The position numbers and the translations under genes are program-made. From Gonium pectorale (lineage: Eukaryota > Chlorophyta > Chlorophyceae > Chlamydomonadales > Volvocaceae): a stretch of DNA of 64,000 bases. Location of the stretch: NCBI GenBank assembly GCA_001584585.1, contig LSYV01000027.1, positions 963,866 through 1,027,865 of the forward strand. Reading direction: 5' to 3'. The first letter of the stretch is position 1; every line of letters begins with the position of its first letter. Of the stretch, positions 17,001-50,253 are shown piece by piece. Below the pieces are notes generated by a model. The model did not search any database. It was not told the origin of the DNA and saw nothing but the letters and a program-made list of their open reading frames with translations.

Positions 17001-18425
17001 TGCTGCTCCGCTGCGTATCCCACCCTCCCAACCAACTGTTCGTGACCCTACTCCTCGCCCCTGGGCCCCAGGACGCTGATGCGCTACGCCACCGAGGCGT
17101 ACGAGTCTGCCCGGGGGACCTTGTCGGCGCAGGATATCATTCGGTACTCACAGGTAGGGGACGCTTGAAGCAGTGGTATGGAATATGTATTCAAGTCGAC
17201 GGCGGCGCTTGTTAATGCAGCCCTTGCCGTCGCCAGTGATCCTGCCACGTGCTCGCCCTCCTATGCCGGCTGCCTCCCTCGCCGCACCGCGCCGTGCTGT
17301 ACTACACGGAATGCCGTATCTTTTCCGTACGCAGTACCGCACGTACCTCAAGGGCAGCAGCACAGTGTGCATGGCGCTGATGAAGCCGGGGCGGCTGCTG
17401 GAGGTGGCCAATGTGGGCGACAGCGGAGTGCGCATCCTGCGAGACGGCAAGGTCATCTTCGGGACAGAGGTGAGGCGCGGCAGCGGTATTGGGGCAGGGC
17501 CTTGAGAGGAGGGGCGACAGCCAGCAGTGGCTGCAGGAGCAGGAACAGGCCAATCTGTCGCAGACCACCCCTCTCATCGCTTGGGTGTGGGGCGCTGAGT
17601 TTCGGCTGTGTTTGCCGTGCCCCTGACCAGGGTGCCTGCTGCCCGGATCGCATGAGACTCATGTCACCATGGCGCCCCTTGGGCTCGGCCCCTCACTGCC
17701 AACGCACACCTCCCCCGGCGTCGTGCCTGTCTTTGCGCCCCCCTCAGGCCCAGCAGCACGCCTTCAACATGCCCTACCAGCTCTCCCACCCCAACAACGT
17801 GGAGGACCCCGACTGCGCCGACGACGCCGACGTGCACCTGGTGCCGGTCCAGGAGGGCGACGTCATCATGCTCGCGACCGACGGCCTCTTTGACAACGTC
17901 TTTGACGAGGAGGTCGAGCAGATCGTCTCCCAGTACATGAAGGAGCTCGCCGCCTCGGGCCGCGGCAAGGGACCCTCCTCGCCGCCGACTGCGTCGGGCG
18001 CCCCGCAGCAGTCAGTAGCGACGAACGGCGCGGAGGCCGCCGCGTCCGGGTCGGCGGCGGCGGTGGGATCGTCGTCATCGTCGGGCGGCCGCGGCGGGGG
18101 CGGGGGCCGTCCGGCGACGGGCCTGCTCAGCCAGAGCCTCAGCGCCGCCGCCGCGGCGGCGAACGGCTCGGCGGGCGGCCGCGCCGCCAACGGCGCCTCT
18201 GGTGCAGCCGGCGGCGGGCAGTACACGGCGGCGGATGCGGCCCGGCTGGCGCGCGCTCTGGCGGAGCGGGCGCACCAGCACGCGCGCAACCCCACGCAGC
18301 GCACGCCCTGGAGCGTCACCTCGTCTCAGCAGCCCAACTTCCTGTGGGCCAAGTTCTTTGCCAAGGGCGGCGGCAAGATGGACGACTGTACCGTCCTGGT
18401 GGCCTTCGTGTCCGGGTCCGATTGA
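11056..18425 (+). CDS. CBM20 starch-binding domain fused to PTC7-type PP2C phosphatase
   Basis: Ten exons: 11056-11314, 11410-11477, 11555-11647, 12073-12258, 12408-15365, 15688-16209, 16477-16577, 17072-17153, 17335-17469, 17748-18425; 1,693 residues. ATG 11188 (MKLAEKANLRS) is an alternative in-frame start. The N-terminus is basic and Ser/Arg-rich and runs to LVLLCQASTSTST, as in a chloroplast transit peptide. Residues about 120-235 form a CBM20 (VKVRLCLQHQ, VVGSSAQFGDW, LAWEAGPNRLVQV), which binds starch. A linker of about 1,000 Ala-rich residues follows, mostly in one exon. The C-terminus (from about 1345) is a PP2C of the PTC7 type, with the metal-binding sites VADGVSGW, ANVGDSG, LATDGLFDN and KMDDCTVLV all intact, so it should be an active Ser/Thr phosphatase. 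The catalytic domain is interrupted by a Gly/Ser/Ala-rich insertion of about 90 residues. Intron 2 is GC-AG. The likely role is dephosphorylation at plastid starch (inference). Confidence 0.85.
11811..11840 (+). repeat. Three tandem copies of a 10-base unit
   Basis: GTTGTCCTGA occurs twice exactly and once with one change, inside intron 3 of the CBM20-PP2C gene. It is a short tandem repeat with no visible function. Confidence 0.9.
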
Positions 18426-24165: not shown

Positions 24166-34487
<10,322 letters not shown>

Positions 34488-45561: not shown

Positions 45562-45566
45562 TTACA
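45562..45566 (-). other. Polyadenylation signal (TGTAA, minus strand) of the prohead-protease-like gene
   Basis: TTACA on the + strand, 290 bases past the minus-strand stop at 45856, is the nearest TGTAA in the gene's own direction. Confidence 0.55.
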
Positions 45567-45855: not shown

Positions 45856-48800
45856 TCAGAGCCGGTGGCCGTTGTGGGGGTGGTGCGGCCCGCCGCCGCT
45901 GACGCCGGGCCCGCCTGCCTGCACCTGCCGCAGCAGCGCCGCCTCCACCTTTTTCTGGTGAAGCTGGTACAGCTGCGCGAAGGCTATGAGGGAGGCGCGG
46001 ATGTCCAGGAAGCCCTGTGCCATGGACTCCCCGCCAGGCAGCTGCGCGAGCCAGGCCCGCACCTGCTCATCTTCGCTCCCCAGGCCCCCGCTGACTTGCC
46101 GCCCATTTGACGCCTCCACGTGCCCCCCGTGCCCCTGATGCTGATGGTGTTGCTGCCCGTGGTGGCATGGGTGGCCTTGCCCCGGCCAGGGCCCGTCGCC
46201 GGCGTAGCCCGGTGCGCTGTGGTGGCCGTTCGCCGAACTCGGGTGCGAGGGTCTGAGGCTGCCGTTGGCGCCGTGTTGTTGCTGTAGCTGCTGCTGCCCC
46301 CAGCCGCCGACGCTAGGATACGCGCTGTGGTCTTGTATGCAGCAGTTTGAGTTGAGGGCGTGCGGGTGCATGGCCCACGACTCGAGGTCACCCGCCGCCG
46401 CGCCGCCACCGCTGGCGGCGTGCACGACGGCGTACGACGCGTCGATGCCCGAGGGGCCCTGCGTCTCCGCCGCAGCCGCGGCGACGGCGGAGGACGGGAG
46501 CAACATGCCGCTGGACATAACGCCGCCGTAGCCGGTGGCGGTCCCGGGGGTGGACGTGATGCAGAGGGGCGCGGTGGCGCCGTTGGCGCCGGAGCGCTGG
46601 GGCGGCGAGGGAATGCCGATGCCAAAGCGGGCGCCGGCGTGGGGCGGTTGGTCCAGGCGGGTGGCGAAGGACGTGGATGCGGGGTCGAACGAGTCCTTGG
46701 TGACCAGCTTGTTGAGGATTACATTATCGATGTCACCACGGCTGAGCGACTGCGAAGAGGGCGGCGGGTTACGGGGACAGATGGGTGTTAACGGTACGTG
46801 CTGGTTTGGGGTCGGCTGGTGCGCGGACCAGGGCAACCCTCATAAGAGTCGCGGGATGATCAGCACGCTGGCCCCCGCATACAGGACTAGCAAATACAAC
46901 AACACGCGATACTGCTGCCCGGACGCGCAGAGCCTCAGCGCAGAAGCCACATTACACGAAGTACGCGAGACGGGGCGGAACGGCGCCACGCCCGCCGCTG
47001 CACAGCAAGCGCTCACCCCAGTGTTCATCCGCTCGTCCGCTAGGTGCGCCCGCGCGGTGAAGATGACGAGGTGCGCCCGGTAGTCCCGCGCGTGCTGCTC
47101 CCGGTCCAGGTAGGGCGCGGACTGCGCCACGGAAAAAAGGAAAGCATAGCAGGTGTGTGTCGGGCGCAGGGCGTGATTATGAGGCTACGGACGCGGAGGC
47201 GCATCGCATCGCGGGCGCATGAGCAGGTACCCCACTGTCGCGCGCAATTAACAAGCCAGATCGGTGGGCCAATCGATCAGCTGAACTTGTCAACCCGCAG
47301 CCCCATTTTCCTGTCAAGAAGACTCCATTCAAGCGTCCTGGCTAATGCTTGCAGTGCGGTCCCCTTCGCCCGACCGACCCCAGCCGTACCTGGTGCACCA
47401 CATAGTGCCCAAAGCACAAGAGGTTGTCCAATCCGCTGGGCTTGAAGGAGGGCGGCATAGCGGCTTGGAGCCCCCCGGGCAACACAGCACCCGACAGGGG
47501 CACGCCACCAGGGGACGGGGACAGCTGCTGCAGCGCCGCCGCCGACGCGCGCTGCGCAGGGAAGGGAGGAAGGGAGGATTGTCAAGGCGCGGATTGGAAA
47601 GAGTGGGGGTCGGAAGAGCGCGGGTTTCGGGACTGCTGTGAGGGCGAGTAGATGCAGGCATGCTGCGCGCGTCCCCTCCCCATGGAGCGCTTCGGAGCAC
47701 AGCCGCGAGCCCCCGCCAGACAGGCTGGCGCTGCACTAAGACGCAAGCAGCTTGCGAGGCTGGGAGGCCGAGCCGCTGCCTGAGACCGCTGGCCTTGGGA
47801 CCACAGCGCCGCATGGCAACGGCTCCCTCGAGGAAGCTCCCTCTGCTCCAGTTGCTCCTGCGCAGCTGCGGCTGGCCCGCTATCAATGCTCCCTGGACTC
47901 CGGCCATGCGCACCCCCGCACGCGCACTTCCACCCGCACGCGCTCCCACCCTCCAGGCCCCAACAAGAGGAGGGCTGGCGCGGACGCACAGCGCCATGAC
48001 ATGGCGCCTCCGCGGAATCACCAACCAAAGCCAGCACGGCGTTGTCGAGCGCCCCGGCCGGCTGCATCGCAGCTCGGAACCCGCACGTGTCCGATCGGCG
48101 ACAGCTCTACAGGGGCTGCGACGGGTACCAGCAACTTCCACTGCTGCCCTTGCCGCAAACCCGGCAGTAGACCTGCCTCCATCGACGATGACCACCCCCC
48201 CGCCTTGCCGCGGGCTGACAGCGGAGTCAGCTGCCGGGCCACGGTCGTCGCTCCTGCTTAAGGCCGCCCGCGTCGCCAGAAGTGGCGCCACCGCAGCCCA
48301 TTCCACGCCGGGCCACGCCTACAGGCCTCAGCTGCGGAGCCACTGCACCGTCGCCCGGCTGCAATCTGCTGCATATTCCCTTGGTAGCCTGCCGGCCCAC
48401 GACCCCTCTTCTCCCCAACTCTTCTGCCAGCCGACCACCCAGGCGCCTGCCCGGTCGTGCCGACCATCGGAGCACCTGCCCTTGTCCATGCTCTGCAGCT
48501 CGGTTGCCAACGCTCACCCAGCGACCCCGCGACCGCACGGACCAACCCGGCCCCCGCCCCCCGCCCGCACCTGCAGCTCCGCTATCCGCTGCACCAGCAC
48601 CGCCGGCCCGGGCACCCGCGCCACTTTCTCCATCGCCACCACGCCGTGACCCAGGTGGGAAATGGCCACCACCTGCGAAGCGCGCAGCCGGAGGAGTGCG
48701 GGAGTTCGGGGACAGGCGGCGTGGGGTATTGAGACAGGGGCCTGAAGGAAAGGCCGCCTTTGCGGTATCCTATAGGCGGTTTGGCCGAATGCGGTGGACG

Positions 48801-50253
48801 GCGCTGAGCGGCCAGCGCCAGGTCAGAACCTCGCTTCCCGGTAACGGGCTCGTCCCACCCCAGCATCCCCATTCTATCAAACGTGAACTGTCAGCGACTC
48901 ACCTTATTCTGGTCCGGCACTGGCCGCCTGTACCTCCGCTGCACGGGCGCCAGGTAGGCCCCCCGCGTGGACGGCTCGGTCACGAAGTCGAAGGTGATGA
49001 GCTCAAAGTCATCGTCCACGAAGACGCACTTGGAGGCGGGGTCGGAGCGGAGGGAGGCCCAGCCGCGGGACGAGACGCCCAGCTTCACGCCCTGTCCCCA
49101 AGCCCCGGCCCCGGTAGATGAATCGTCAGTTGTTGGGTTGCTTGGTTGGCGGTTGCGTCATTGTGCTGTGTCCCGGGTAGCGGACTTGGTCGTGAGCTCA
49201 GCTTCCCTCCCTGAGAAACCCTTTCGAATGGAACCGTGCGGCGGACCAGCCCAGGGTCGACGCCTACCAATTCCTCACCCGCGAGTAGAGCTCCCACAGC
49301 AGGAGCCCCGAGGGCGTTGGCAGCACCTCGATAGTACCCCACAGCTGGTCGCCCTTCCACACCACCTCCAGCACCTGCAAGGGGGGCGTAGTGGCCGCAG
49401 GGGGCGTCGCCAGCAGGTCTGGAACACGGCAGGCCAGCATGTCGCCAGGTTGGGAGCGCAACGGGCGCGCAGGGCACTGCGGGAGCCCCGAGGAGAGCAC
49501 GCGAGGGCCACTGACAGCAAAGCCGTGAGAGCGAGAGCAGCACGGGGCCCTACAAAGGGTCACGGAGCGGGGGTGCGGGGGGGCCCACCGAGCGGGGGTG
49601 CGAGCGGTCGGCGTGGCAGCGCCCTGTGTGGCCCTCCTGCCTGGTGAAGGTCTCGCGGGCAACGGCAGCCAACCCCGCGCCGCGAGGCACGCACCTGGTG
49701 GCTGACATTGGGCAAGTTGAGGCACTTGAAGTACTTTGAGGCATAGTTTGGGTGATCCAACTCCCCGAGCGCGGTGCCCGGCAGAATGTGTTCGGCCTCG
49801 AACCGAGAAACCTCCCGCTCAAGGATGTGCTGCAAGGCCAAAGGGTTCATGTGTCACGCACGCGTGGTCAGGTGGGCAGAAGCGGGTTGCGCCAGCATCG
49901 CGGGCACATGTGAGCACGCTCCCACCTTGGGGTACACGCGCTTGTTATTGTTCCGCGTGTTGGCCCGCGCAAATATCCCTGCAGGAGTGTGAACTCTTTG
50001 CGTTGGCCGCAGTCCGCGTCGACCCCGAAATTCCTATTGGCCCAAGTTTACCATGCACGTAGAGTTTGCCTCCGTTCAACGCCACGGACCGATCATAAAG
50101 CCGTTTGAGCTGCAAAGCGTTTAATAGTGGTGAGAACGCGTCCTCGGGCGGCAAACGAAGTGTGGTGGCCTCCCATACCTCCTCACGGCTGAGCTCGGTG
50201 TGGTTATCCGGTAAAAGCGGTGGAGCACAAGCGCCAAAGCACCCGAAGACCAT
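45856..50253 (-). CDS. Phage T4 gp21-like prohead protease (peptidase S77) domain protein
   Basis: Nine minus-strand exons (50253-50052, 49978-49926, 49829-49695, 49374-49279, 49091-48903, 48672-48571, 47551-47390, 47121-47017, 46749-45856) join in frame to give 645 residues. An in-frame ATG at 50286 would add 11. Residues about 62-215 follow the order of the T4 prohead core protease: KLYVHGIFARANTRNNNKRV, YPKHILEREV, then LGELDHP (catalytic His about 111), VVWKGDQLWGTIEVLPTP, then LGVSSRGWASL (catalytic Ser about 169-170) and DDFELITFDFVTEPSTRGAY. In phages this serine protease (T4 gp21 is about 210 residues) cuts scaffold and capsid proteins during head maturation. Both catalytic motifs are intact. 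The remaining 430 residues match nothing I know and end in a His/Gln/Gly-rich tail. Eight introns and a TGTAA signal show a resident nuclear gene. The substrate is unknown. Confidence 0.85.

Follow-up and report, generated by a model that had tools for sequence, protein, structure and literature searches.

An S77-type prohead protease domain of probable phage descent encoded by a nine-intron nuclear gene of the green alga Gonium pectorale

The presence of a phage-type capsid-maturation protease in an algal genome raises the question of (i) what the encoded protein is, (ii) where it came from and (iii) whether it has been kept by the host as a working enzyme. The gene in question lies in a 64,000-nucleotide stretch (the window, to which positions refer unless a contig is named) on contig C27 of the G. 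pectorale assembly (128.9 Mb in 352 contigs). It occupies positions 50253 to 45856 on the minus strand and comprises ten exons and nine introns (the initial annotation had counted eight introns), with a spliced product of 622 residues. Its features are as follows:

Exon 1, 50179..50253, minus strand: residues 1-25, with the ATG at 50253; placed by the gene model and an in-frame stop upstream.
Exon 2, 50052..50109, minus strand: NGGKLYVHG, the start of the S77 domain; aligns with NGGKLVVHG of the phage locus L024.
Exon 3, 49926..49978, minus strand: IFARANTRNNNKRVYPK; placed by the gene model and alignment.
Exon 4, 49695..49829, minus strand: HILEREV...GELDHP, with the codon of the putative catalytic His88 at 49754-49752; placed by the gene model and alignment.
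Exon 5, 49279..49374, minus strand: VLEVVWKGDQLWGTIEVLPTPSG; placed by the gene model and alignment.
Exon 6, 48903..49091, minus strand: GVSSRG, with the Ser146 codon at 49073-49071, and FDFVTEPS, with the Asp174 codon at 48989-48987; end of the S77 domain.
Exon 7, 48571..48672, minus strand: first exon of the C-terminal extension; placed by frame and codon score.
Exon 8, 47390..47551, minus strand: C-terminal extension; placed by frame and codon score.
Exon 9, 47017..47121, minus strand: C-terminal extension; placed by frame and codon score.
Exon 10, 45856..46749, minus strand: low-complexity tail and TGA stop; placed by frame and codon score.
TGTAA, 45562-45566, minus strand: candidate polyadenylation signal of the green-algal type, located 290 nt beyond the stop codon.

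All nine introns begin with GT and end with AG, as had been described for the original eight; eight are in phase 0 and the remaining one is in phase 1, six have lengths that are not divisible by three, and the frame is uninterrupted over the 622 residues. When introns were treated as retained, in-frame stops were encountered in seven of the nine, the exceptions being introns 1 and 2. Splicing and expression of the gene are probable because of the intact frame, the homology that extends across introns 2-5 and the codon use. TGTAA is a polyadenylation signal in green algae, and a copy as cited earlier is indeed present; however, it constitutes weak evidence, since such pentamers arise by chance and 24 copies occur on the same strand of the 64-kb window, others nearby being located at 46719 (exon 10), 46952 (intron 9) and 50641.

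The motifs that had been likened to those of T4 gp21 are all present in the reported order on the minus strand, namely KRVYPK-HIL (which spans an intron), GELDHP, WKG...VLPTP, GVSSRG and DFVTEPS. The HMM comparison that had been proposed as a check was performed by a Pfam-A search of the spliced protein, in which residues 40-188 matched positions 43-190 of the 198-position S77 model (PF03420) at E=7.1e-21 with a score of 75 bits (cut-off 27), a match far above chance level. Similarly, residues 34-191 matched the head maturation protease family PHROG_207 (E=5.7e-41), a second such family, PHROG_3014, was matched at E=0.0034, and the only significant match among PDB sequences was 5jbl (prohead core protein protease, T4 gp21 chain) over residues 36-190 (E=2.6e-13). 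Additionally, 2498 of 50,697 phage records matched in a tblastn search at E<=1e-3. The identity as a T4-type S77 protease is thus upheld by Pfam, PHROG_207 and 5jbl alike. The S77 domain matched nothing at E<=1 in NCBIfam, a library that may lack an S77 model. No Pfam-A family other than PF03420 was matched at E<=1, leaving unmatched the herpesvirus-type S21 and HK97-type S78 maturation proteases, both of which have models in Pfam-A.

In an alignment of the algal protein with 111 relatives, His88, Ser146 and Asp174 are in register with residues 85, 140 and 168 of RB51, a T4-type gp21. We take H85 and S140 of T4 to be the catalytic His and Ser and the Asp174 column to hold the triad Asp of the S77 family; this column is invariant in a 16-row alignment and at least 97% conserved in the 111 relatives. 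The claim that both catalytic motifs have been kept therefore agrees with the alignment, as does the reported His-Ser spacing of about 58 residues, near that of T4 gp21, which amounts to 58 residues (His88 to Ser146) versus 55 (H85 to S140) in RB51. The 5jbl chain carries Ala at both positions matching algal His88 and Ser146, and this pair probably represents an inactivated active-site mutant made for the crystal.

Among named phages, the top match was Microcystis phage Mel-JY01 (48% identity over residues 41-189, E=2e-39), followed by cyanophages at about 34-39% identity, while contigs of IMG/VR reached about 53%. The putative proteases of Mel-JY01 and of the uncultured loci L024 and L026 (48%, 50% and 53% identity over the domain, respectively) share a tree group with the algal protein but differ from it in being only about 200-220 residues long and encoded by one open frame in AT-rich loci. 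The Mel-JY01 protease gene sits between those of the portal (PHROG_213) and the major capsid protein (PHROG_138). None of the five neighbour proteins from L024, L026 and L009 had a PHROG match, so that the protease and the tree are the basis for calling these three loci 'T4-like'. Relatives were gathered by scanning viral contigs, where the alga alone as query yielded one confirmed stretch of 11 and a three-row alignment at least 572 of the 600 listed (the best 80 of these 572 being used), and genome contigs, where 16 of 300 stretches were confirmed, all in a prokaryote-only collection. In this latter scan, the T4-like protease genes were on contigs binned as bacteria or archaea (L104-L119; Euryarchaeota, Pelagibacter and Flavobacteriales), which are perhaps phage contigs mis-binned in MAGs.

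A quick tree of 112 rows placed the alga inside a 99-row group (SH-aLRT 99). A careful tree comprised 61 rows, namely the alga plus 60 relatives picked from the 111 to represent groups, with the long-branched L016, L020 and L021 among those dropped. Here, the alga and 50 relatives were separated with support of 100/99 from an outgroup of ten T4-type, cyanophage and other named phages, a split that was named after the first tree had been seen. Topology tests rejected neither a position of the alga outside the T4-like set (p-AU 0.129) nor its pairing with L009 (p-AU 0.152), and weakly rejected its pairing with the Mel-JY01 group (p-AU 0.040). By sequence comparison, the closest kin found within the phage collections searched are uncultured T4-like phages and Mel-JY01, and the phylogenetic check against phage proteases suggested at the outset placed the alga with the former. 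The earlier proposal of a domesticated viral enzyme is supported insofar as it concerns a phage-side affinity, but its other suggested source, an HK97-fold eukaryotic virus, finds no support: only S77 was matched in Pfam-A at E<=1, and across the phage and IMG/VR collections it is with T4-like phages of the uncultured kind that the algal protein clusters.

We consider it probable, from the sequence data, that this gene was captured from a T4-like phage and kept as a single-copy host gene for a limited-cleavage endopeptidase. The source would have been a T4-like bacteriophage of the large uncultured group that includes Mel-JY01, and the recipient the nucleus of a green-algal ancestor, in which the gene would have acquired introns and a long C-terminal extension, taken on the GC content of its host and been retained in single copy. 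The product is predicted to be proteolytically active, as a serine endopeptidase of limited cleavage that employs a Ser146-His88-Asp174 triad within the phage fold. In T4, the enzyme is located in the core of the prohead and cleaves scaffold and capsid proteins; in the alga, the extension may stand in for this docking to the capsid core by holding the enzyme close to a host substrate or regulating it there. Retention by selection, a role for the extension and the existence of such a substrate are postulates of this reading.

The conservation profile bears on whether the domain is still constrained as an enzyme. Relative to the 111 relatives, which were sampled by similarity to the algal query, the algal residue is that of the phage majority in 26 of the 29 columns that are at least 97% conserved, in 17 of 23 at 90-97%, 18 of 37 at 75-90%, 21 of 54 at 50-75% and 8 of 56 below 50%. 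Columns of at least 90% conservation are kept in 43 of 52 cases by the alga, compared with 35 of 53 in the RB51 row and 52 of 52 in Mel-JY01. The algal terminal branch is long (2.2-3.1 changes per column) and is free of stops and frame breaks. The pattern of residue retention appears to be that of purifying selection, since conserved columns have been kept along a long, intact branch and the S77 family is listed in Chlamydomonas reinhardtii, a listing which itself suggests retention. The S77 fold may instead have been kept as a scaffold or binding unit rather than for catalysis, the protein being a pseudoenzyme or nearly so. In line with this, three near-invariant residues are altered (R32, A151 and R191, of which A151 lies near the catalytic Ser motif), the branch is long and a T4-type autoprocessing site is not recognisable: the T4 self-processing motif is [LI]xE followed by A, G or S, and none of the four [LI]xE strings in the algal protein is followed by one of these residues. 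We regard this explanation as unlikely, however, as the three catalytic positions and the motifs are all intact.

The C-terminal extension of approximately 420 residues (about 203-622; 45856-48672, minus strand) is of low complexity in its latter part. It matched nothing in Pfam or PHROGs, its first 177 residues matched nothing in NCBIfam or among PDB sequences, and it is possibly a lineage-specific domain. The absence of a detected relative, together with the length of intron 7 (1019 nt) and the stop that is met after VSR when intron 6 is read through, would fit a model that fuses two genes, i.e. an S77 gene that terminates close to exon 6, followed by an unrelated gene formed by exons 8-10. 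Such a fusion is nevertheless quite unlikely, given that introns 6-9 are GT-AG introns all in phase 0, that exons 7-10 are read in the best of six coding frames and that introns 6-8 are devoid of TGTAA.

In comparison with T4 gp21 (MEROPS S77, PF03420, PDB 5jbl), the algal protein, which we favour as a retained host endopeptidase, has in common the domain, the His and Ser motifs and the Asp within D-x-V-x-x-PS, but it is encoded by a nuclear gene with introns, carries a five-residue insert after GELDHP as well as the extension, and capsid genes were not found beside it. To our knowledge, few tailed-phage-related genes have become fixed as working eukaryotic nuclear genes, the mitochondrial T7-like RNA polymerase and Twinkle being examples. 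The same family is represented in a green alga by the S77 'prohead endopeptidase' of C. reinhardtii, presumably an orthologue: Zou and Bozhkov 2021 record S77 for Chlamydomonas but not for Arabidopsis and note that information about its role is lacking, and neither 'phage' nor 'viral' is used anywhere in the text of their paper (PMC8643629). It had initially been remarked that no experimental account of such a host protein was known; this holds insofar as no functional study of an algal prohead endopeptidase was found in the open-access literature, but the family itself had already been listed in Chlamydomonas (PMC8643629). The occurrence of S77 in Chlamydomonas is thus already known, while the phage placement, the exon anatomy and the extension are new as far as searched.

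A capsid-maturation protease whose active site is kept outside any virus poses the testable question of which substrate it cleaves, and Chlamydomonas, where S77 is listed without a role, is tractable in the laboratory. A bolder and improbable version is that the alga turned the phage protease into an intracellular enzyme directed against the scaffold or capsid proteins of infecting DNA viruses, which it would cleave, or against those of a self-assembling host compartment; if true, a viral assembly enzyme would have become a host antiviral or assembly-control factor. PADLOC models gave no match to residues 1-359, a result that says little for a eukaryote.

The S77 gene is a well-supported nuclear host gene of phage descent. 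Its S77 exons have a GC content of 62% and all exons together 68%, compared with 30-38% at the loci of seven relatives. The annotated frame had the top codon score of the six in nine of the ten exons (in exon 1 by a hair's breadth), exon 2 being the exception in which the score does not favour its frame; the scoring table was that of C. reinhardtii codon usage. GC3 ranges from 0.63 to 0.94 by exon, with exons 1 and 2 at 0.63-0.64; mean GC3 in C. reinhardtii is 81.9% for accepted genes and 65.5% for 250 doubtful genes, according to PMC8226300. When the Mel-JY01 protease was searched against the whole genome, all three matches at E<=1 were exons of the S77 locus (exon 6 at E=5.9e-8), and all ten matches of residues 1-359 of the algal protein at E<=0.1 were likewise to this locus; the gene looks to be single-copy in the assembly. 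The Pfam S77 profile, scanned exon by exon, returned no match in this genome or in 14 control genomes, and for the algal gene this is a false negative of such scanning, because the protein queries do find the locus.

The viral descent of the domain would also be compatible with an endogenised phage-like or mirusvirus-like virus of which it is a relic without a host role. This is very unlikely: the capsid and terminase proteins of Mel-JY01 gave no genome match at E<=1 (an empty answer that is weak by itself) while the protease did match the locus, and the introns, the host composition and the listing of the family in C. reinhardtii argue against it. The phage-type setting between portal and capsid genes was not seen, the window instead containing eukaryotic genes (SR140/U2SURP-like and PP2C, by Pfam) and the genome yielding no capsid or terminase match; Pfam searches of the flanking pieces gave nothing in two of four sets. 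Furthermore, the chlorophyll a/b-binding family had 33 matches in the genome, counted exon by exon (one cyanobacterial control also matched), two of which lie on the same contig at C27:1072183-1073205, some 44 kb past the window. Contamination or a chimeric assembly with phage DNA, to which the phage nature of the close protein relatives might point, is extremely unlikely in view of the nine introns, the host GC and the algal genes on the contig. The original view of a nuclear algal gene, neither a contaminant nor a fresh insertion, is hence sustained by introns, host-like GC and codon use, and algal genes on the contig.

A dip in GC elsewhere in the window proved to be merely a run of N. The SR140/U2SURP-like splicing factor gene (26351-30573, plus strand), located upstream of the protease gene in the window, has RRM and Surp matches and a CID match just below its cut-off, and the PP2C-type phosphatase (17332-18410, plus strand) carries long Ala/Gly-rich inserts.
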